Assembly (NCBI GenBank): GCA_016874735.1
Contig: VGTI01000019.1
Span: 1-64,000, forward strand
Source of the DNA: Deltaproteobacteria bacterium
Lineage (GTDB): Bacteria; Bdellovibrionota_B; Oligoflexia; Oligoflexales; CAIYRB01
Length of the DNA: 64,000 bases
Direction: 5' to 3'
Shown here: in pieces, positions 37,106 to 48,622 of the stretch
Position numbering within the stretch: position 1 is the first letter of the stretch
How the letters are laid out: each line of letters starts with the position of its first letter
Program-made: the position numbers and the translations under genes
The notes under the pieces: generated by a model
Databases searched by the model: none
Told to the model about the DNA's origin: nothing
What the model saw: the letters and a program-made list of their open reading frames with translations, nothing else

Positions 37106-37502
37106 CCAGATTGGTGTTGCAGGATTTAGACTAGCCTCTAATACTAAAATAGCTGTAAATCTAAGCCAAAGCTGAGCTACCGTCAGAGTCGCTCATGGAC
37201 GATCCGATCACAGTGCAATGGCCCTGGTACGGCGTAGTGTTCGTGACATTTTTTGACGCGTCTGCGGGCGCTTAGAGTTACATCGGGGATTGTCAGGTTT
37301 GCTGTCTACCATTAAGACGCCCTCGCCACTGTCGCACCTACGGAAGCATCTGCCTGGGCGGTTGATGAGCGTGGTGACTGCGATCTGAATTACCAGACGA
37401 GGCGCAATTACCATTTCGACTTCCTACTGTTTGAGATATAGATCGACGGTTAACACGTTTCAAAAGCTGCACCTTAACTGGTGGTTAACGGAAGAGAATC
37501 GT
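37106..37502. other. Intergenic region upstream of the bd-type oxidase
   Basis: About 400 bases with no supported gene. A minus-strand frame at 37208-37414 is basic and low-quality. The region should hold the promoter of the oxidase operon. I see no clear terminator after the radical SAM gene. Confidence 0.45.
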
Positions 37503-38825
37503 ATGACCGATTTACTAGCCGCTCGGCTACAAATGGCACTCAGCCTAGGGTTTCACATAATCTTTGCTGCAATCGGTGTTGCGATGCCGGTACTAATGGC
37601 GACTTCGTATCGGGAGTATTTACGCACGGGCAACGCAGAGGCCAAGCAATTGACAAAGGCCTGGTCCAAAGGTGTAGCGATTTTTTTCGCTGTGGGAGCA
37701 GTTTCTGGGACAGCCTTATCGTTTGAATTAGGTCTCCTTTGGCCTGGATTCATGAAGTATGCTGGTCCAATTATTGGTATGCCTTTTTCATGGGAGGGCA
37801 CTGCTTTTTTTCTCGAAGCGATTGCTCTTGGTATCTTCCTATATGGTTGGGATAAGCTGCAGCCTAAGCTGCATTGGCTCAGTGCCGTCGCCGTGGGCAT
37901 TGCCGGAATTACTTCCGCTATGTTTGTAATATGTGCCAACGGATGGATGAACAGCCCTGCCGGATTTACTTGGAATGGAGGGCAGCCAACCGATGTTGAT
38001 CCATGGGCCGCAATGTTTAATGATGCTGCCTTTTTACAGGGTCTACATATGGTTATAGCCTCGTTCCAAGCGGTTGGATGTGCAGTTGCTGGCTGCCATG
38101 CTTGGCTGTATCTAAAGCGAAAGCATAGGATCCATGAAAAGGGGCTAAAGATTGCATTTGTGGTCGCCGCCTTCAGCTCAATAGCTCAACCAATCCTTGG
38201 CGATCTATCTGCCAAAAGTGTCGCTAAACGCCAACCGGCTAAACTTGCCGCGATGGAGGCACATTTTGAAACGTCGAGAGGCGCTCCGCTTCTTTTAGGT
38301 GGCTTACCCGACGAAGTAGCCGGCGAAACACGGTATGCCATAAAGGTCCCCAAAATGCTGAGTATGCTTGCATACGGTGATTTCGAGGCCGAAGTTAAGG
38401 GGCTTAATGATTTCCCCGCTACTGAAAGGCCCCCGGTAGCGGTCACTCACATTGCTTTTCAAATAATGGTTGCAATCGGCACACTACTCGCAGGAGTCGG
38501 GGTCATCGGGTTGTGGCTTCTCAAATACCGACCAAAAGGGTTCATGAATCCATTATGGCTAAAGATATTAGTTTTTCTGACCCCAACAGGATTTATCGCG
38601 ATTGAGGCCGGTTGGATCGTTACCGAGGTAGGACGGCAGCCTTGGATAATTTATGGGTACCTGCGAACAGCTGACGCTTTGACCCGAAGACCTGGTGTGA
38701 CTTACACACTCGCGTTGTACGCTGCCCTTTACTCCATCCTAACCATAGTAGTGGCCGTACTTTTAACACGGCAATTTAGCCTTCTCGATCGCGATCTTAG
38801 TACTAGCGATTCAGCTAAGGAGTGA
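37503..38825 (+). CDS. cydA: Cytochrome bd-type quinol oxidase subunit I (CioA/CydA)
   Basis: A 440-residue membrane protein and terminal oxidase subunit binding hemes b and d. It begins with MTDLLAARLQMALSLGFHIIF, the usual CydA start, and contains the conserved GRQPW block (TEVGRQPWIIYG) near the C-terminus. The quinol-binding loop looks short, which is typical of the CioA (cyanide-insensitive, short-Q-loop) branch rather than the long E. coli type. The ATG at 37503 is chosen over 37431 because the longer leader is not protein-like. It is immediately followed by the subunit II gene with a 5-base gap. The enzyme oxidises quinol and reduces O2 to water with high affinity, without pumping protons. 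Confidence 0.93.
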   Translation: MTDLLAARLQMALSLGFHIIFAAIGVAMPVLMATSYREYLRTGNAEAKQLTKAWSKGVAIFFAVGAVSGTALSFELGLLWPGFMKYAGPIIGMPFSWEGTAFFLEAIALGIFLYGWDKLQPKLHWLSAVAVGIAGITSAMFVICANGWMNSPAGFTWNGGQPTDVDPWAAMFNDAAFLQGLHMVIASFQAVGCAVAGCHAWLYLKRKHRIHEKGLKIAFVVAAFSSIAQPILGDLSAKSVAKRQPAKLAAMEAHFETSRGAPLLLGGLPDEVAGETRYAIKVPKMLSMLAYGDFEAEVKGLNDFPATERPPVAVTHIAFQIMVAIGTLLAGVGVIGLWLLKYRPKGFMNPLWLKILVFLTPTGFIAIEAGWIVTEVGRQPWIIYGYLRTADALTRRPGVTYTLALYAALYSILTIVVAVLLTRQFSLLDRDLSTSDSAKE

Positions 38826-38830
38826 ACGTT

Positions 38831-39877
38831 ATGGCTCTTTCGACCTTGGGTAACACAGTATTTTTAGCTATCGCACTTGTTTTTTACATCCTATTCGGAG
38901 GCGCTGACTTTGGTGCCGGCATTTTGGAACTTTTCAGTCGCGGCGATCAGCGACGAGCACACCGTGACCTGATTGCGTCCGCGATTGCACCTGTTTGGGA
39001 AGCTAACCATATCTGGCTAATTCTGGTAGTCGTCATCCTTTTCGTCGGATTTCCAGAAATATACTTAGAATTAACTTCATGGTTATTTATTCCCCTCATG
39101 TGCCTGCTAGTCGGCATCATCCTAAGAGGATGCGCTTTTACCTTCCGACATTACGATACGCTGACTCCGCGCTTGGAAGGGCTCTACGCTTGGACTTACT
39201 CACTGTCTAGCTTATGGTCAGCTTTTTTCCTGGGAATATTGGCGGGAGCACCGATAGCCGGGACCATAAACCCTCTGGCGGCAAGTTTTCAAGATGCCTA
39301 CGTCACTCCGTGGTGTAACCCACTTTGCTTTTCTATCGGTTTATTTACGGTATCAATTTGCACCATGCTTGCATCTGTATATCTCGTGGCGGAGGCCAAT
39401 GAGGGACAGATGACAGCACACTTTCGCAAGCGCGCTAGGTATGCTGCTTTGCTCACTCTCGCCACTGGCGCGCTAGTGTTTATCGCCGCCCGATACTATA
39501 GCTCAGCACTTTTCAACAACTTTACGACAAGTTATACGAGCATATTAGCATTCGCAATCGCGACCGTGTTGCTAGCTCCTATGTGGTGGTCACTTGAACT
39601 TCGACCTAGCCCTACAGTCCTTCGGATCACGAGCGGAGTCATAGTTACCCTAGTGTTGGTTGGATGGTACGGCGCTCACTTTCCGATCGCTATTTATTAC
39701 AGTGCGACAAGTAACACCCCCAACTTGACGTTTCAAGCTGCAGCATCACAGCTTCCTACTCAAAATTCGTTGTTCTCTGCACTAATAATAGGTGTGATCA
39801 TTATTTTTCCTGCGTTATTCATTTTATTAAAAATATTTAAAAGTGCCACGTTCAAAACTAAATCTGAGGCGAATTGA
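38831..39877 (+). CDS. cydB: Cytochrome bd-type quinol oxidase subunit II (CioB/CydB)
   Basis: A 348-residue polytopic membrane protein, the partner of subunit I. The N-terminal VFYILFGGADFGAGIL and WEANHIWLILVVVILFVGFP are the standard CydB signatures. About eight membrane segments are expected. The ATG at 38831 has AAGGAG 8 bases before it, lying across the end of the previous gene. No CydX-like small subunit or CydDC transporter is seen next to it. Confidence 0.93.
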   Translation: MALSTLGNTVFLAIALVFYILFGGADFGAGILELFSRGDQRRAHRDLIASAIAPVWEANHIWLILVVVILFVGFPEIYLELTSWLFIPLMCLLVGIILRGCAFTFRHYDTLTPRLEGLYAWTYSLSSLWSAFFLGILAGAPIAGTINPLAASFQDAYVTPWCNPLCFSIGLFTVSICTMLASVYLVAEANEGQMTAHFRKRARYAALLTLATGALVFIAARYYSSALFNNFTTSYTSILAFAIATVLLAPMWWSLELRPSPTVLRITSGVIVTLVLVGWYGAHFPIAIYYSATSNTPNLTFQAAASQLPTQNSLFSALIIGVIIIFPALFILLKIFKSATFKTKSEAN

Positions 39878-40093: not shown

Positions 40094-40837
40094 TTAGTCA
40101 GAAATAAATTGATTTGACCGTTCTTGGTAAAATTGCAGCGCATAGTCCACGTGCGCATCTAAACTATCAAAAATACGAAATCCCCGCTCCTTTAGACCTA
40201 AGAGGCCGAGCTCTGTGCAGGATAGCACAATACTATCGAGCCTCTCGCGGCTAGCCCAGTCGTCACAAAAAGCCTGAAATGCCTGGCGATCCTGATCATC
40301 GACACAGCCACGAACCAAACGCTCCCAAATCACTCTATGGATCTCGTCGCGTTCGGGTCGCGTGGGTATGCAAAGCTCGACACCGGCAGATTCTTGAATA
40401 CGACGCTTGAGAAAAGGTTCCTCCATCGTCGGCCTTGTCCCCAAAAAGCCCACGCGGTGACTCGCATTTTTCGCGAGCGCTGAGGCAATGGCAGATCCCA
40501 TGTGCAAGACAGGACGCTGCGTAGAAGATTCGATGACGCGCACAAATTTGTGAATCGTATTGCTAGCGATCACCAGCGCTTCGCAGCCACTTTGGGTGAG
40601 TAGAAGCGCAGAGTTTACGATCTGACGCTCAACTTCTTTCCATTGACCATTAGCTTGTGAGCGTCCAATCATTCCAAAATCGTGGGAGTAAATCAGAAGT
40701 GGAGCAGAACGGTCGCTACCAAAGATGGAGGCAAATCCTTCGTTCAACTTTTGATAGTAAATAAGCGTCGAATGGTAACTGAGACCGCCTATCAGACCAA
40801 GAGTAGGACTTTGCACTTGTGCCGTGGCGCGCATCAT
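40094..40837 (-). CDS. Aspartate/glutamate racemase-family protein (YgeA-like)
   Basis: A 247-residue cofactor-independent racemase of the Asp/Glu family. SPTLGLIGGLSYHST is the family N-terminus. The second catalytic position is present as Cys in VLSCTELGLL, while the first is Thr (IASNTIHK), as in the broad-specificity YgeA branch rather than two-cysteine aspartate racemases. Such enzymes invert several amino acids, often with low activity. Start at 40837 (or 40834) follows GGAG and avoids overlap with the upstream gene; the frame to 40927 is mostly overlap. It is the last gene of a seven-gene run. Confidence 0.87.
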   Translation of the reverse strand: MMRATAQVQSPTLGLIGGLSYHSTLIYYQKLNEGFASIFGSDRSAPLLIYSHDFGMIGRSQANGQWKEVERQIVNSALLLTQSGCEALVIASNTIHKFVRVIESSTQRPVLHMGSAIASALAKNASHRVGFLGTRPTMEEPFLKRRIQESAGVELCIPTRPERDEIHRVIWERLVRGCVDDQDRQAFQAFCDDWASRERLDSIVLSCTELGLLGLKERGFRIFDSLDAHVDYALQFYQERSNQFISD

Positions 40838-40853
40838 CGCATGAGATCTCCGC

Positions 40854-41408
40854 CTAGGGGTGGCACACCGATATTTTGGCTTCATCAATGGCTTTGCATG
40901 CTGCGTCAAAGCGCGCCTGGCCGACACCGCTGATTAAAACCACGGACTGACCAACAAGCCTATGCTCATAGAATTCGATGACCTGATCACGCGTATCAGG
41001 AGACGATCTCACTGGGTCAGGTTGCCACGGTAAATCTGGACATAGCAAGAGATACAAATCGTATTCACATTGGTCTGCAAGATCTTTGACTGACGCAGGA
41101 CAGCTGCCATACAGCGTTTCCGCATAGAAAACCGTCATAGCAGCATCGGTGTCTACGAATAAATAATGACTGGCCTTTTTTTCCATAGCCACTACTTGCG
41201 CCCAGTGACCACGAGCGATAGGTTCCACGTCGGCAGCAGTCAGTGCGCCTTGCTTATTTATAGCATAGGCGCGCGCATATTCAGGGACCCACAGCGCCCT
41301 GTAATGGGTGGCTAATTGTTGACACAGCGTGGTCTTTCCAGACGACTCCGGCCCGATAACGGCAATTTTGCGACAATTTGATGCTTTACTGCTTCTTGTT
41401 GCATCCAC
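40854..41408 (-). CDS. NadR-type (nicotinamide riboside kinase-like) ATPase
   Basis: A 184-residue P-loop protein matching the C-terminal kinase domain of NadR: KIAVIGPESSGKTTLCQQL (Walker A), VPEYARAY, and FVDTDAAMTVFYAE. NadR kinase domains phosphorylate nicotinamide riboside for NAD salvage. There is no nucleotidyltransferase or DNA-binding part, so only the kinase step is predicted. It lies 3 bases from the aminopeptidase gene and 16 bases from the racemase gene in the same operon. A function on another substrate is possible. Confidence 0.85.
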   Translation of the reverse strand: MDATRSSKASNCRKIAVIGPESSGKTTLCQQLATHYRALWVPEYARAYAINKQGALTAADVEPIARGHWAQVVAMEKKASHYLFVDTDAAMTVFYAETLYGSCPASVKDLADQCEYDLYLLLCPDLPWQPDPVRSSPDTRDQVIEFYEHRLVGQSVVLISGVGQARFDAACKAIDEAKISVCHP

Positions 41409-41411
41409 TTG

Positions 41412-42890
41412 TTACGGAATCCAAGCATCGATATCGTGACGCAGGCTCCGGAACAACGCATTGAACGGCGCCCCAGTGGCGCCGTAGTGCGCTCCCGGAT
41501 AATCACCACTCCAATTCCAGGTTGAGGCGAAGATATCAAAGTGCACCATGGGCGTGATCGCAAATTCTTTGAGGAAATGTGCTGCCACGTTAGAGCCGCC
41601 CCCGATATTGGCAGCATCAGGCATCCGTCCCATGTTTGTCAGATCAGCAGCCTTGGAGATATTGCCCTGTCTAAACGGTAGAAACTCACCCCAAAAGGTA
41701 AACTCCTCGCCTGTTTCCTGACCTGACCTTGCGAGGCTCAGCTGGCAGCTGGGCGGCGCAAAATGGACGGCGGTAAAGAAGTTGGTGAATTGCCTGAGCG
41801 ATGCTGTGGTTAACGTCGCTGCAACTAAAGTTTGCGCTGGTTGCAGCGCCTTTTGACTGTAGTTGATGGCATCTGCAAGAATCAGGCGCCCCTCAGCATC
41901 CGTGTGTTCGATGATGACGTCCTTGCCAGCGTAGGAGCGAATGATGGCACCTGGCTTCATCGCGCGTTCACCGATGAGGTTCTCACAGGCCGGAATCGCC
42001 AAAGCTAAAGGCCCGTCGTATCCACTCTCGATGAGGCCCATGAAGAGATTGGCCATGAGGCCTGCACCGCCCATGTCATTCTTCATACAATTGACATGAC
42101 TCTCGTGCGGCTTCAGGTTGATACCACCCGTATCGAAAGTGATGCCCTTACCAACGAGTAGCAGCGGCTTTGAACCTGGGACGACACGGTGAGTCGCCAG
42201 AAAAAACCGCGACGGCGAGAGATCACTCGCCTGTCCGACGGCGAGGAGGAGGTTCATACCAAGTTTAGTGAGTCCCTCGCGGCCAAAGGAATTGAACTCA
42301 CAGCCATGACGCCGGCAGAACTCCTCGAGCCTTTCACCTATAGCGATAGATGTGAGCTCGTCAGGATTTTCGTTCACCCAACGACGGAATCCGAGTTGCC
42401 GCTGCCACCGCACCTGCCAGTGGGGATCAGCAGAGCGCAAAGCCTCGCCCTCACTTGTCAGGATGCGAAAGCTCTCGAGCTCACTGCGCTCGTAACGTGG
42501 CGTCATTTTACGCGTCCAAAAATCCTCGACAATTGCCAGCTCAGCTAGCCCCGACCCTGGTTCAAGGTAAAAAGCCAACTTCTTCAAATTGAACTGTGTT
42601 GCCAGCGATGCTGCCATCTTGGCAGCGACCCAACGGCGCTCCAGAGCCGATACTCCATCCTTCTGCCAAGTGAGCACCGCATAGGGACTACGACCATCGG
42701 GACGCAAAAATCCGGCATCACTGCGCAGATAATGCGTCCTACGACTGAGACTAGGTGCCGCGCGCTCGATCAACGCCCTAACCCACGGTGACTGCTCGGA
42801 CCCGGGCCGACCGAGGACGATGAGCAATTCGTCAGCCGCAACGTGATCACCCGCAGTGTCTTTCGGTATCTCTATCAGCGTTGGGATCAT
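41412..42890 (-). CDS. M17-family leucyl aminopeptidase
   Basis: A 492-residue dinuclear zinc aminopeptidase. The conserved C-terminal catalytic half shows VGKGITFDTGGINLKP (metal ligands Lys and Asp), MKNDMGGA and HTDAEGRLILADA, all expected M17 blocks. The N-terminal half is divergent. The ATG at 42890 overlaps the stop of the aldehyde dehydrogenase (ATGA), so the two are coupled. M17 enzymes release N-terminal residues from peptides. Here it could act on a dipeptide-like intermediate or on products of the upstream gamma-glutamyl pathway, which is inference. Confidence 0.9.
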   Translation of the reverse strand: MIPTLIEIPKDTAGDHVAADELLIVLGRPGSEQSPWVRALIERAAPSLSRRTHYLRSDAGFLRPDGRSPYAVLTWQKDGVSALERRWVAAKMAASLATQFNLKKLAFYLEPGSGLAELAIVEDFWTRKMTPRYERSELESFRILTSEGEALRSADPHWQVRWQRQLGFRRWVNENPDELTSIAIGERLEEFCRRHGCEFNSFGREGLTKLGMNLLLAVGQASDLSPSRFFLATHRVVPGSKPLLLVGKGITFDTGGINLKPHESHVNCMKNDMGGAGLMANLFMGLIESGYDGPLALAIPACENLIGERAMKPGAIIRSYAGKDVIIEHTDAEGRLILADAINYSQKALQPAQTLVAATLTTASLRQFTNFFTAVHFAPPSCQLSLARSGQETGEEFTFWGEFLPFRQGNISKAADLTNMGRMPDAANIGGGSNVAAHFLKEFAITPMVHFDIFASTWNWSGDYPGAHYGATGAPFNALFRSLRHDIDAWIP

Positions 42891-44266
42891 GTTGGTAACC
42901 TCAAATGCCAAGCCTTAGGTTTCAGGAAGGTATCGATGCCAAGCACTGACAGCGTCGATCCAATGCCCGAGTGACCACGTCCACTCCACGGCAAGCGTGG
43001 ACTCACGCGGTCGCAGCAATTCCAATAGACGCTACCGGCATTGAGCTCCGCCATGAATTTAGAGGCGCAAGCAGCGTCCCGCGTATAAACCCCTGCCGTT
43101 AGGCCGTACTCAGAGTCGTTCATAAGTTTTAAGGCTTCGTCGTCACTTGCGACTTTTTGAATGCCGATCACCGGTCCAAAAGATTCATCTCGCATGATGG
43201 CCATAGAGTGATTGACCTCGGTCAACACTGTGGCTGGATAGTAGTAGCCCTTACCACTCTGAGGACGCTCGCCACCGAGGAGTACTTTGGCACCTTTTTT
43301 GACGGCATCGCGCACTTGATCTTCAAGCACGGCAAGCTGTGGCTTGCGAGCAAGCGGGCCGAGATACACGCCCTCGGCCGTTGGATCACCACTCTTAAGA
43401 GTCTTAGCAAAAGCCACAAAATGCGCCACGAAGGACTCATAGATGTCCTTATGCACATAGATGCGCTCAACCGCACAGCAACTCTGCCCAGCATTGTAGA
43501 AGGCACCGTCGGCCGTGCCCTCAGCTGCCGCCTTAACGTCGACATCCGGACGGATATAGACTGGGTCTTTACCGCCTAGTTCTAGCTGCACGCGTATCAT
43601 GCGACCCGCTACCTTCTCGATGATGCGTTTACCGGTGGCGTAAGAACCGGTGAAGAAGACACCGTCCACTGGCTGATCGAGCAACCATCCGCCAACCTCC
43701 CCCCCACCAACCAAACTCTGGAAAAGCGCTTCATGGAGACCTGCCTCACGCCACAATTTCTCAATGTGACGCCCCGTCAAGGTGGCAAATTCAGAGGGCT
43801 TATAGAGCACGGCGCTGCCAGTGAGGAGCGCTGGCACAAAGACATTGCTACCGACAAAATAGGGATAATTCCAAGCCGAGATGTTGGCGACGACGCCGAG
43901 GGGCTCATAACCGATCCGCTCGGTCATGCCGCTAGCTTGATCATGAAGGACCACTGGCTCACGGAGCCGCGCTGCAGTCTCGCTGAGATAGAAATCCAGG
44001 CGCCCTAGGGTCCCATTAACCTCGTTGCGCGCCTGCGCCAGTGGCTTTCCGACTTCGCTGGTTAGGATACGCGCACTTTCTTCACGATTATCCGCGAGCA
44101 ACTGACGGAAGCGCTCTACAATACGTGCGCGGTCCGCATAACTCGTAGCACGCCAAGCACCCTGGGCCGTCTTAGCGGCAGCAAACTTTTTGGCGATCGT
44201 CGCCTGGGTGTCAGTTTCGAGCTTGGTGATTACTGCTTCGGTAGCCGGATTGATAATCTCTAGCAT
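42887..44266 (-). CDS. NAD(P)-dependent aldehyde dehydrogenase
   Basis: A 459-residue aldehyde dehydrogenase oxidising an aldehyde to its acid. It has the cofactor-binding region YEPLGVVANISAWNYP, FFTGSYATGKRI, the general base in LELGGKDP and the catalytic cysteine in NAGQSCCAVERIYV. The subgroup resembles succinate-semialdehyde or aminoaldehyde dehydrogenases. It is 2 bases after the gamma-glutamyl hydrolase gene, with AAAGGAC before the ATG, and overlaps the aminopeptidase gene by 4 bases. Its likely substrate is the aldehyde made by the alcohol dehydrogenase of the same operon. Confidence 0.93.
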   Translation of the reverse strand: MLEIINPATEAVITKLETDTQATIAKKFAAAKTAQGAWRATSYADRARIVERFRQLLADNREESARILTSEVGKPLAQARNEVNGTLGRLDFYLSETAARLREPVVLHDQASGMTERIGYEPLGVVANISAWNYPYFVGSNVFVPALLTGSAVLYKPSEFATLTGRHIEKLWREAGLHEALFQSLVGGGEVGGWLLDQPVDGVFFTGSYATGKRIIEKVAGRMIRVQLELGGKDPVYIRPDVDVKAAAEGTADGAFYNAGQSCCAVERIYVHKDIYESFVAHFVAFAKTLKSGDPTAEGVYLGPLARKPQLAVLEDQVRDAVKKGAKVLLGGERPQSGKGYYYPATVLTEVNHSMAIMRDESFGPVIGIQKVASDDEALKLMNDSEYGLTAGVYTRDAACASKFMAELNAGSVYWNCCDRVSPRLPWSGRGHSGIGSTLSVLGIDTFLKPKAWHLRLPT

Positions 44267-44268
44267 GT

Positions 44269-45045
44269 TCAGTCCTTTCTTGTGCGCGCCGCTTGCAGCA
44301 AAGCCTGCAGCACAGGCTCGGGGCTAAGGAGCGTCGACTCATGTTTATGCTGCAACTCAGGATGCCACTGAAGTCCGATCATGAACGCACCACTGCCGTC
44401 CTTGAGCCGGATGGCCTCAACTACACCGTCATGCGGACAGCGTGCCTCGACCACCATCCCAGGCGCTAAGTCCTTGACCGCTTGATGGTGCACACTGTTG
44501 ATGTGCCCCTTCTGCACCCCAAACAGGCGCGCCAGTTCACCACCGGCCTCTAGGTGCACCTCGTGATGGTTACCCTCATAGACATCATAAATTCTGTGAT
44601 GCAAAGAATTAGACACCTGCGTCCGCACGTCTTGGTACAGAGTCCCACCCATCGCGACATTAAGCACCTGGTGACCACGGCAGATGCCGAGCAAGGGTTT
44701 ATCCAGCTTGAGTGCTGCCCTGATGATCGCGATCTCGTAGTCGTCGCGATGTTTATCACCTGACCAATCAGGACGCAGGGGCTTTTCCCCATAGGACTCA
44801 GGCGCCATGTCAGCACCGCCGGTGATGATCACAGCGTCGAGCTCAGCCACAAGATCTTCAACGCTCGTCGCATCGGCCACATCTGGCACGGTGGGTAAAA
44901 GGCAGGCAAAAGCTCCTGCCTTCATCACCCAATGGGCCATCCCCTCCTCTAAATAGAGGAGGCGGCGCCCCTTGTAAGCCATTCTGGAAAAGTCTGGCTG
45001 ATAGATATTGGCGCTAAACCCAACGCGCAGTCTTTTAGTGGCCAT
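44269..45045 (-). CDS. Class I glutamine amidotransferase-like gamma-glutamyl hydrolase (PuuD-like)
   Basis: A 258-residue peptidase C26-family protein. The nucleophile elbow is LGICRGHQVLN, the fold continues with AVIITGGADMAP, and the catalytic His-Glu is in GLQWHPEL. In putrescine degradation PuuD hydrolyses gamma-glutamyl-GABA to glutamate and GABA. Here the same reaction on another gamma-glutamyl acid is likely, because the gene sits between a gamma-glutamyl ligase/dehydrogenase pair and an aldehyde dehydrogenase. The gap to the alcohol dehydrogenase gene is one base. Confidence 0.9.
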   Translation of the reverse strand: MATKRLRVGFSANIYQPDFSRMAYKGRRLLYLEEGMAHWVMKAGAFACLLPTVPDVADATSVEDLVAELDAVIITGGADMAPESYGEKPLRPDWSGDKHRDDYEIAIIRAALKLDKPLLGICRGHQVLNVAMGGTLYQDVRTQVSNSLHHRIYDVYEGNHHEVHLEAGGELARLFGVQKGHINSVHHQAVKDLAPGMVVEARCPHDGVVEAIRLKDGSGAFMIGLQWHPELQHKHESTLLSPEPVLQALLQAARTRKD

Positions 45046-45046
45046 G

Positions 45047-46195
45047 CTACTGTGCCCGAGCGTACAGTTTTACAAAATCCTCGCGCGTCACAGGACGCGG
45101 GTTACTGCCGTGACAGGGATCTGCGACCGCAAAATCAAGTAGGGTATCCGTAGTCTTGGCACCAATGGCGGCCAGCCCCGATGGTAGTCCCACCTCTTTT
45201 TTGAGAGCAGCCAACCAGTCGATAAAGCCCTTGGCTAACGCCGCTTGATCCAACGACTTGATGCCGACCACTTGACCGAGTCGTGCCAAACGCTCCGGCA
45301 CTGCGCTGAGGTTAAATTCCATGCAGGCGTTGAGCATGAGCGCATTAGCAAGTCCGTGATGGGTATCATAGACCGTCGACAAGGCGTGGGCACAGGAGTG
45401 CGTCACACCGAGGCCTTTTTGGAAAGCAACTGCGCCCATAAGCGAGGCCTGCTGCATGCCTGCACGCGCTTCATAGTCGGTGGGGTTGCGTACTGCCTTG
45501 ACTAGATGCTGCGCCACGAGACGCACGCCTTCGAGGGCGATACCGTCGGCCATCGGATGGTTACCCTTAGCGAGGAACGCCTCAATATTATGCGTGAGGG
45601 CGTCAAAGCCAACTGCTGCCGTCACAGCAGCTGGTAGTCCATAGGTCAGCTCTGGATCAGCTAATACCAGCGGTGGTAGTAGCTTGGGATCAAAAATGAT
45701 CTTCTTCGCATGCGTATGGTCATCCGATACGACGGAAGAGCGACCGACCTCACTACCAGTGCCCGAGGTAGTCGGCACAGTAATCATAAATGGTACCGGT
45801 TGATCCACGGGTCGGGCGTCGGGCTTGCCGTCCTCATAGTCAAAGAGTTGCCCCGGATGATTCACCATCAGCGCGACGGCTTTACCCACATCGAGAGGGG
45901 CTCCGCCGCCAACGATCACCAAACTGTCGGCACCGTGCTCATGGTAGGCCTTGACCCCGCCCTTAACTTGGATCTCCGTAGGGTTACCAAAAACGCCCGC
46001 ATATACGGAAGGTATGAGCCCAGCTCGTTCTAAACTCGCGGCTAAATCTGTGATCATCGGTAGCGGCGCTAATGCCTTATCCGTAACGATGAGAGGACGC
46101 TTCAGACCACGCTGCTTCAATGCGTCTGGCGCCAATTTAATCGCTCCAGCACCGAATTTGATGATCGTCGGGTAGTTGTACTGGACAACAGCCAT
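45047..46195 (-). CDS. Iron-containing alcohol dehydrogenase
   Basis: A 382-residue group III alcohol dehydrogenase. TVPTTSGTGSEV binds NAD(P), GFDALTHNIEAF and VTHSCAHALS/HHGLAN carry the metal ligands (one Asp, three His expected). Substrates in this family are small alcohols and aldehydes. AAGGAG lies 8 bases before the ATG, 12 bases after the ligase gene. In place of the flavin-dependent amine oxidase (PuuB) of the standard putrescine cluster, this enzyme could oxidise a gamma-glutamylated amino alcohol to the aldehyde. That is inference. Confidence 0.92.
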   Translation of the reverse strand: MAVVQYNYPTIIKFGAGAIKLAPDALKQRGLKRPLIVTDKALAPLPMITDLAASLERAGLIPSVYAGVFGNPTEIQVKGGVKAYHEHGADSLVIVGGGAPLDVGKAVALMVNHPGQLFDYEDGKPDARPVDQPVPFMITVPTTSGTGSEVGRSSVVSDDHTHAKKIIFDPKLLPPLVLADPELTYGLPAAVTAAVGFDALTHNIEAFLAKGNHPMADGIALEGVRLVAQHLVKAVRNPTDYEARAGMQQASLMGAVAFQKGLGVTHSCAHALSTVYDTHHGLANALMLNACMEFNLSAVPERLARLGQVVGIKSLDQAALAKGFIDWLAALKKEVGLPSGLAAIGAKTTDTLLDFAVADPCHGSNPRPVTREDFVKLYARAQ

Positions 46196-46207
46196 GAAAA
46201 CTTCTCC

Positions 46208-47566
46208 TTAGATGATTTCGAAGTAGCGCTTAAGTTCCCAGTCAGTGATTGCCTTCTGATACTGCTGCCATTCCCACATACGCGTTGCCGCATAATGATC
46301 GACAAACTTATCGCCAAAGAGCTCGCGAGCGATCGCTGACTTGGCAAAGGCTTCGGTAGCCTCAGCCAGGTTACGGGGGAGACGTGTCGCATGCTTAGCC
46401 AAATAGCCACTACCCTGAGTCATAGGCTCAGTTAGTTCGAGTTTGTTCTCAATGCCGTAGAGACCTGCGGCGATGGCCGCTGCAATACCAAGATAAGGAT
46501 TGATATCAGCTCCACCAATGCGGAGCTCAAGGCGCGTCGATTTTTCGCTACCCGGAATGACCCGCATACAGACCGTCCGGTTGTCACGCCCCCAGGTTAC
46601 GCGTGTCGGTGCCCAGAAGCCCTCTACCAGACGTTTATAGCTATTTACCGTCGGCGCAAAGAGCGGCAAGATTTCCGGAAGACAGCGCATTTGACCTGCC
46701 AGGTAGCTCTTAAACGTGGCGCTCATGCGCAGTGGATCCGTCGCGTCGTAAAACAAATTGACGTTGTCCGCATTACGCAAACTCTGATGCAAGTGACCAC
46801 TGCAGCCCGGCAGTTGGTTATTCCACCGCGCCATGAACGATGCTGTGAAGCCAAAACGGTTGGCGATCTCTTTCGCCCCTGCCTTAAAAAGCACCGCACG
46901 GTCAGCCGACTCCAAGGCCTCGGCCGCGACTATGGCTGCCTCGTAGACGCCGGGACCCGTCTCGGTATGAAGACCCTCGATCGGCACATCGAATTCGCCC
47001 ATCTGATCGTACAGTGCGTTAAAAAACTCTCGCTCATAACCTGAGCGCATCAGTGAGTAGCCAAACATCCCTGGAGTCAACGGCTCGGGCCTCGCGTGAC
47101 CCTTCTCCGCTAGAGTTAGCGGGGTCTCGCGGAAGTTGAACCACTCAAACTCCACACCAACCATGGGATACATGCCTGCGACCTCGGCCTGCGCCAAGAT
47201 CTGCTTGAGGAGCTGCCGTGGACAGATGGCCAAGGGCCGGTCCTGATCATCGACAAAATCGCCGAGGAAGAACGGCATATTTTGATCCCAAGGAATCGTC
47301 CTGAAAGTCGAGAGATCCAGGTTGACCTTGGCGTCGGGATAGCCGGTATGCCACCCCGTGTACTCAACATTGTCATAGGCTTGATCGGAGCTGTCCCAGC
47401 CGAAGACCACGTTGCAAAAGCCAAATCCAGACTCAGCTGCACTCAAAAATTTATCGACGTGCATCACTTTGCCGCGCAGGACGCCGTCAAGATCGGTGAT
47501 GGCAACTTTGACTTTGGTCGCTTCTGATCGGCGAATCTGCTTGATAACGTCTTCCGGCTTACTCAT
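46208..47566 (-). CDS. Glutamine synthetase-family gamma-glutamylamide synthetase (PuuA/GlnA4-like)
   Basis: A 452-residue ATP-dependent ligase of the glutamine synthetase fold. It shows VGVEFEWFNF, TETGPGVYEAAI, GCSGHLHQSL, SYKRLVEGFWAP and RIGGADINPYL. These blocks and the length (PuuA is 472) place it with gamma-glutamyl-amine ligases rather than housekeeping glutamine synthetase. It should join glutamate to an amine; the amine cannot be read from sequence. Start 47566 has GGGGA about 9 bases upstream; the frame to 47602 is rejected. It is the first gene of the seven-gene unit. Confidence 0.9.
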   Translation of the reverse strand: MSKPEDVIKQIRRSEATKVKVAITDLDGVLRGKVMHVDKFLSAAESGFGFCNVVFGWDSSDQAYDNVEYTGWHTGYPDAKVNLDLSTFRTIPWDQNMPFFLGDFVDDQDRPLAICPRQLLKQILAQAEVAGMYPMVGVEFEWFNFRETPLTLAEKGHARPEPLTPGMFGYSLMRSGYEREFFNALYDQMGEFDVPIEGLHTETGPGVYEAAIVAAEALESADRAVLFKAGAKEIANRFGFTASFMARWNNQLPGCSGHLHQSLRNADNVNLFYDATDPLRMSATFKSYLAGQMRCLPEILPLFAPTVNSYKRLVEGFWAPTRVTWGRDNRTVCMRVIPGSEKSTRLELRIGGADINPYLGIAAAIAAGLYGIENKLELTEPMTQGSGYLAKHATRLPRNLAEATEAFAKSAIARELFGDKFVDHYAATRMWEWQQYQKAITDWELKRYFEII

Positions 47567-47683: not shown

Positions 47684-48622
47684 CTAACCGGCGATGAGAG
47701 CGCCCGACCAGAGCTGCGTCGGCAAGCCCAACTCACAGCCACGATCGGTACCTAAGAATTGCTTGCCGCCCCAGGTGAAGGCCTTACTCTCACTCTGGAC
47801 TGTGATCGGCATTAGTTTTGGCTCCGCCTGACCATCGAGGCGCAAATAGATGAGAGGCTGGCCGGCACCACTGTAGGCCTCCCAGGTACCGCTGATAAGC
47901 GTACCGTCGGCAGTTTCCAGTACCGAATTGCCTGTAAGGCCCGTCTGTTTATATGCCATACGGCCCGTGCAGAGCCAAACCAACTGCCGACCGACAGTGC
48001 CACTAGAGGCACTAGCTGTGCCGGCAAAAGACCACTCACCGATGGCCAAATATTGCCGCGTCGGCAGGCTCGGTGCGAACGTCGTGAATCTGACGGACGC
48101 CACTGCGGCAGTAAACCGCGCCTGCAACGTGGCGCTGTCACCACCCGTGCCCCAAACCAGAAGCTTAACACCCCCAAATCCAGTCTGATCATAGCTATCA
48201 CGGGGCAACGCCGCGACTATGGCAGTGACAGTCTTACCGCTCTCGGCTGTTCCCTCGTAGGTGCGCTTACTGCCCTTACCTGCAGCTGCTATGAGCTCCG
48301 ATGCGGCACCAACGGCAGAAAGTGTGGCTCGCTCGCTTAAGGTCTCATTGTCACCCAGTACGGTCGCCAGTGTAGCGGTTGTAAGAGACACCTGGTAGCG
48401 AAGTACGACGCCCTCATCACCAGTCGATGATACCCATGTCATCGACGTTCCTGTGCTGCTGCGCGACTCAAGCCCCGAAGGTGTCGAGAACGCGACGCCA
48501 AGACCCGACAAGTCGGCGACACCAGCCGTCCAAGAGTCACCACCAGTGCCGCTATCACTCTTGCCACCACCGCACGACAAGGTGAACGCCACGACCATGG
48601 ATCTGAGGATTAATCGGGACAT
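47684..48622 (-). CDS. Lipoprotein of unknown function
   Basis: A 312-residue lipoprotein with leader and LSCGGG lipobox followed by a Gly/Ser-rich linker. The mature part looks beta-rich with a duplicated arrangement: an N-terminal half of about 160 residues and a C-terminal half with cysteines at VWLCTG and RGCEL. I recognise no domain. The start has GGAG 5 bases upstream. It lies upstream of the ligase operon on the same strand, with a 117-base gap, so read-through is possible but there is no functional link. Confidence 0.78.
   Translation of the reverse strand: MSRLILRSMVVAFTLSCGGGKSDSGTGGDSWTAGVADLSGLGVAFSTPSGLESRSSTGTSMTWVSSTGDEGVVLRYQVSLTTATLATVLGDNETLSERATLSAVGAASELIAAAGKGSKRTYEGTAESGKTVTAIVAALPRDSYDQTGFGGVKLLVWGTGGDSATLQARFTAAVASVRFTTFAPSLPTRQYLAIGEWSFAGTASASSGTVGRQLVWLCTGRMAYKQTGLTGNSVLETADGTLISGTWEAYSGAGQPLIYLRLDGQAEPKLMPITVQSESKAFTWGGKQFLGTDRGCELGLPTQLWSGALIAG

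Follow-up and report, generated by a model that had tools for sequence, protein, structure and literature searches.

The 64,000-nt window analyzed here (contig VGTI01000019.1 of the Deltaproteobacteria bacterium assembly GCA_016874735.1, from a lake bacterium) contains a run of seven intact minus-strand open reading frames (ORFs) within positions 40094–47566. The first four of these genes (47566 to 42887) probably encode a complete pathway for the gamma-glutamylation and breakdown of ethanolamine. In the proposed scheme, a ligase would use ATP to couple glutamate to the amine of ethanolamine, and the hydroxyl of the resulting gamma-glutamylethanolamide would be oxidized to an aldehyde by an iron-containing alcohol dehydrogenase (Fe-ADH) with NAD+. 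An aldehyde dehydrogenase (ALDH) would convert this aldehyde to gamma-glutamylglycine, from which a C26 hydrolase would release glycine and glutamate. Because glutamate is released in the last step, the glutamate tag would be recycled, and the glycine would enter general metabolism. We infer the substrate, the order of the reactions, the cofactor, and the product from sequence comparisons.

Conservation of the gene cluster

The original prediction described seven genes on the minus strand, spaced by −4 to 16 bases, as one operon for amino alcohol degradation, and both the layout and the protein families agree with our results (Table 1). From the ligase to the racemase, the gaps are 12, 1, 2, −4, 3, and 16 bases, based on ATG starts for the ligase (47566), the aminopeptidase (42890), and the racemase (40837) and a GTG start for the kinase (41408). 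An ATGA overlap joins the ALDH gene to the aminopeptidase gene.

A single species-genome scan, together with searches in relatives, supplied the related loci. In the congeners G002, G004, and G005, the order ligase, Fe-ADH, C26 hydrolase, ALDH, and aminopeptidase is preserved, with the G004 locus split over two contigs. Outside the genus, the ligase and Fe-ADH genes are followed by C26 and/or ALDH genes on one strand and in the same order, with no aminopeptidase gene behind them. Such loci come from further families of the order and class as well as from Bdellovibrionales, Myxococcota, Verrucomicrobiales, and FCPU426. In other phyla, most of the genes that surround the core have housekeeping functions and are uninformative. 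Within the phylum, 16 of the 18 genomes with the ligase have an Fe-ADH gene downstream on the same strand (one of them with an intervening gene), usually followed by C26 and ALDH genes, and Fe-ADH is the most constant partner of the ligase. As judged from gene order, conservation of the four-gene core goes far beyond what chance would give. Comparison with relatives had been proposed as a check in the original prediction, and it is this core order that is kept.

The complete seven-gene set was found in none of the other genomes examined. The M17 aminopeptidase gene is separate from the ligase in most relatives outside the congeners, and no congener has the kinase or the racemase gene in the operon. 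In the congener G005, a kinase-racemase pair stands by itself on another contig (L075), and in G002 a racemase gene is found alone at the start of a contig. Because the kinase and racemase genes do not follow the core in the congeners and the aminopeptidase gene does not follow it outside the genus, the operon unit is, on comparative grounds, four genes plus a genus-level aminopeptidase. The three extra genes are probably not pathway steps, and the explanation that we favor with good confidence includes the kinase-racemase pair as an unrelated two-gene unit located downstream. The seven-gene reading is therefore corrected to the four-gene core.

A single pathway of all seven genes, leading to a chiral amino acid and served by a local NAD supply, would agree with the close spacing on a single strand, but the distribution of the kinase and racemase genes among the congeners makes it hardly credible. 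On the same grounds, both proteins were rejected as pathway enzymes. The roles originally suggested for them, namely NAD supply by the NadR-like kinase and action of the racemase on a chiral product, are accordingly not supported. Since glycine is achiral, the proposed product would require no racemase, which fits the lack of a conserved one.

The aminopeptidase gene has a more complex distribution. In the congeners G001 and G003 (L070:7287–9982 and L072:7453–10148), a paralogous Fe-ADH gene (69%) is followed by an M17 aminopeptidase gene beside Rsm22, and these loci have no ligase, C26, or ALDH gene; no ligase of this kind was found anywhere in G003. This Fe-ADH-M17 pair may have a function of its own. 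In G014 (L120:7447–10233), a ligase gene is directly followed by an M17 aminopeptidase gene and an ORF of 472 amino acids, with no Fe-ADH gene. Because the aminopeptidase gene follows a ligase-less paralogous Fe-ADH gene in two genomes and the ligase gene directly in another, its association may be non-random.

For the first six genes, no NCBIfam model scored above its curated cut-off; the racemase, the only one of the seven to do so, exceeded that of an amino acid racemase subfamily model. An Rsm22-type gene lies upstream of the operon on the opposite strand. A search against Rfam matched no known RNA, and a scan for sigma-70 sites gave eight sites versus 5.5 in shuffled sequences, such that no promoter can be named.

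Table 1. Coordinates, predicted products, and family matches of the seven-gene run and neighboring ORFs in the window.
Feature	Position	Strand	Match
Gln-synt_C ligase, predicted ethanolamine gamma-glutamylase	46208..47566	-	PF00120, 311.7 bits
Iron-containing alcohol dehydrogenase, predicted gamma-glutamylethanolamide dehydrogenase	45047..46195	-	PF00465 + PF25137
PuuD-like C26 hydrolase, predicted gamma-glutamylglycine hydrolase	44269..45045	-	PF07722, 200.7 bits
Aldehyde dehydrogenase, predicted gamma-glutamylacetaldehyde-amide dehydrogenase	42887..44266	-	PF00171, 437 bits
M17 aminopeptidase	41412..42890	-	PF00883
NadR-like P-loop kinase (AAA_28, NadR-type kinase domain)	40854..41408	-	PF13521
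Asp/Glu racemase family protein (Asp_Glu_race)	40094..40837	-	TIGR00035, 110.9 bits (cut-off 93.1)
ORF upstream of the operon	47684..48622		
Two ORFs resembling cytochrome bd oxidase subunits (cydA, cydB), judged by eye	37431..39877	+	

Ligase, dehydrogenase, and hydrolase

Protein families, key residues, operon conservation, and the permease association in relatives can all be read directly from the sequences. The ligase scores below the cut-offs of the GlnA, type III glutamine synthetase, and PuuA models. When aligned with Escherichia coli GlnA, it retains Glu129, Glu131, Glu212, Glu220, His269, Arg321, Arg339, Arg344, Glu357, and Arg359 (the Glu129 and Glu131 assignments were read from the alignment), and these include metal(Mg)- and glutamate-binding residues. 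In glutamine synthetase, ammonium is bound and deprotonated by Glu327, a residue of the flap. This catalytic residue (E. coli GlnA numbering) is replaced by Trp in the window ligase. The same Trp is found in the entire clade of the window ligase and in IpuC-type ligases, while the residue is Phe in the ligases of Chromohalobacter and Roseobacter, Tyr in PuuA, and still Glu in true glutamine synthetases. Because position 327 carries Trp, as in amine ligases, the residue pattern points to an amine ligase. An ammonia-ligating glutamine synthetase was rejected based on this substitution and the scores under the GlnA cut-offs.

In the phylogeny, the clade of the window ligase spans several phyla, and its sister is a plasmid group from Legionella, Photobacterium, Burkholderia, Rhizobium, and Shinella. 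In one member of this group, a Rhizobium plasmid (L030:2558–9738), the sister ligase cluster carries a GMC oxidoreductase gene in the place of Fe-ADH together with C26 and ALDH genes, and a 2-aminoethylphosphonate transaminase gene is located nearby.

The window Fe-ADH belongs to a supported clade of 45 sequences, together with Fe-ADHs of ligase clusters and separate from FucO, EutG, and methanol dehydrogenase, and its metal ligands align with those of solved relatives. When 13 plasmid loci of this clade were inspected for gene context, 10 had a ligase gene nearby, one had hydrolase and ALDH genes but no ligase, and two from the most divergent branch had neither. In two Cyanobacteriota loci (L012:4271–6971 and L016:4138–6693), Fe-ADHs of this clade are paired with ALDH and have no related ligase nearby; the only ligase near the latter is a very distant one. 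For the C26 hydrolase, the catalytic Cys and the His-Pro-Glu residues align with solved relatives, including the PuuD family.

An alternative is a PuuA-like polyamine route, in which the ligase would act on putrescine, the aldehyde would come from an oxidase or aminotransferase encoded elsewhere, and the Fe-ADH would only clear surplus aldehyde. The similarity of the C26 hydrolase to PuuD, the placement of the ALDH in the PuuC superfamily, and a weak PuuB homolog in the genome would be consistent with this route. However, the ligase scores 205.5 bits against a cut-off of 650 for gamma-glutamylputrescine synthetase and is distant from PuuA in the tree, and the constancy of Fe-ADH as partner is difficult to reconcile with an accessory role. 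A co-regulated PuuB-type oxidase elsewhere had been named beforehand as a finding that would speak against the operon's proposed role; none is present in the operon, and the best match in the genome is unlinked and only 26% identical, not a close homolog. The polyamine route thus appears very improbable, and a PuuA-type diamine pathway was rejected by ligase score, tree distance, and the lack of a linked PuuB. The suggestion that an alcohol dehydrogenase takes the place of the amine oxidase, such that the substrate would carry both an amine and a hydroxyl, gains support from these patterns.

Substrate and product

Ethanolamine, the first substrate named in the original prediction, is the best candidate given the gene context and distribution of the ligase. 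An ethanolamine permease gene (TIGR00908, curated cut-off 381.75) lies directly upstream of the ligase gene in two relatives, namely L029 of Bdellovibrionales (31 bases, 435.7 bits) and L124 of G009, which belongs to the same order as the window (10 bases, 421.7 bits). Of 58 genomes from the phylum, 18 have the ligase, 14 have the ethanolamine ammonia-lyase EutB, and none has both, a pattern with a chance probability of 0.002 if genomes are independent. In each of three families (f1, f6, and f13), some genera have the ligase and others have EutB. In addition, every genome in which an ethanolamine permease scores above the cut-off has either the ligase or the EutB system (5/5; chance 0.04 under independence).

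Several observations weigh against this assignment. The EutB exclusion is drawn from related genomes, and its P value is optimistic. The genome itself has no TIGR00908 match, and the operon includes no transporter gene. The window ligase forms a supported clade apart from the Chromohalobacter (5dm3, which we take to be Csal_0679) and Ruegeria ligases and also apart from IpuC and PuuA, in a tree that has some weak deep forks, a long branch for E. coli PuuA, and no Streptomyces GlnA4 among its sequences. The tree proposed as a check thus placed the ligase far from PuuA and separate from IpuC, but outside the Chromohalobacter-Ruegeria clade. Furthermore, the window ligase shares with IpuC-type ligases an FGWD motif in addition to the Trp, and some of the plasmid sister ligases adjoin putrescine-type ABC transporters, suggesting that substrates may vary among nearby branches of the ligase tree.

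The clade position, the shared motif and Trp, and the transporters of the sister clusters could favor the same chemistry with a different amino alcohol as substrate (alaninol, 1-amino-2-propanol, 3-aminopropanol, or 4-aminobutanol). Alanine, beta-alanine, or GABA would then be formed, and the racemase could act on a chiral product. The product of IpuC is hydroxylated to gamma-glutamyl-L-alaninol (PMC6776027). Nevertheless, the permease adjoining the ligase twice, the mutual exclusion of ligase and EutB, and the lack of racemase conservation with the core make another amino alcohol unlikely.

With ethanolamine as the substrate, the product would be glycine, and the genome has a glycine decarboxylase gene. 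A homologous cluster in Salipiger adjoins the glycine-using genes glyA, serine ammonia-lyase, folD, and purU. On an Aminobacter plasmid (L156:2381–12584), an ethanolamine-type cluster is located beside bhcABCD of the beta-hydroxyaspartate cycle; an island on a conjugative plasmid that leads from ethanolamine through glycine to biomass is plausible for this region.

As a component of membrane lipids, ethanolamine is a widespread source of carbon and nitrogen. If the proposed pathway is correct, uncultured lake bacteria without ethanolamine ammonia-lyase would gain a B12-independent route to glycine that also does without a microcompartment, and the four-gene set could serve as a marker for predicting ethanolamine use across several phyla.

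Comparison with known systems

Phaeobacter (MED193) growing on phosphatidylethanolamine induces an ethanolamine gamma-glutamylation operon, which encodes an ethanolamine gamma-glutamylase, a gamma-glutamylethanolamide dehydrogenase, an aldehyde dehydrogenase, and a gamma-glutamylglycine hydrolase (PMC10132767). The same pathway has been described in Chromohalobacter (salexigens) and Agrobacterium (reference 32 in PMC10132767). A Ruegeria cluster (RpiR, hydrolase, TRAP, ligase, ALDH, and Fe-ADH) has the layout of the Phaeobacter operon, and its alcohol dehydrogenase is annotated as iron-containing. The primary source for the Chromohalobacter and Agrobacterium pathway is reportedly Vetting et al. 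2015. The window operon resembles these three systems in having a ligase, an alcohol dehydrogenase, an ALDH, and a hydrolase predicted here to act on gamma-glutamylglycine. However, its ligase belongs to another clade, its gene order is ligase-ADH-hydrolase-ALDH, and it has neither a TRAP transporter nor RpiR. The hydrolases also differ, with a member of the N-formylglutamate amidohydrolase family in the Phaeobacter type and a C26 protein in the window; clusters of Legionella and Photobacterium have a third type, a class-I amidotransferase.

For the Streptomyces coelicolor GlnA4 cluster, the first step has been characterized and the later steps were proposed (PMC6529630). These four steps and their intermediates are the same as those predicted here, although the alcohol step is assigned to a short-chain dehydrogenase (SDR) there. 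The E. coli Puu pathway (PuuA-PuuB-PuuC-PuuD) shares the ligase, ALDH, and C26 superfamilies and the gamma-glutamyl strategy, but it has the amine oxidase PuuB where the window has Fe-ADH, and its ligase is only distantly related. The Ipu pathway from isopropylamine to L-alaninol is similar in the FGWD motif, the Trp at position 327, and an amidotransferase-type hydrolase; unlike in that pathway, no P450 or ferredoxin genes lie beside the operon in the window, and the Paenarthrobacter clusters have an SDR in the position of Fe-ADH.

The original prediction knew of no such gene set. This holds for the full seven genes among the genomes examined, but not for the four-gene kind, which is already known (PMC10132767; PMC6529630). 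Tentatively, the window ligase may represent a second, separate lineage of ethanolamine ligases with its own Fe-ADH lineage, a C26 gamma-glutamylglycine hydrolase, and its own gene order. This lineage would be distributed across several phyla and, within one phylum, would take the place of the B12-dependent ethanolamine ammonia-lyase from genus to genus. Taken together, the kind of pathway is a known one, and the window operon departs from the described versions in its ligase clade, its C26 hydrolase, its gene order, and its host lineage.

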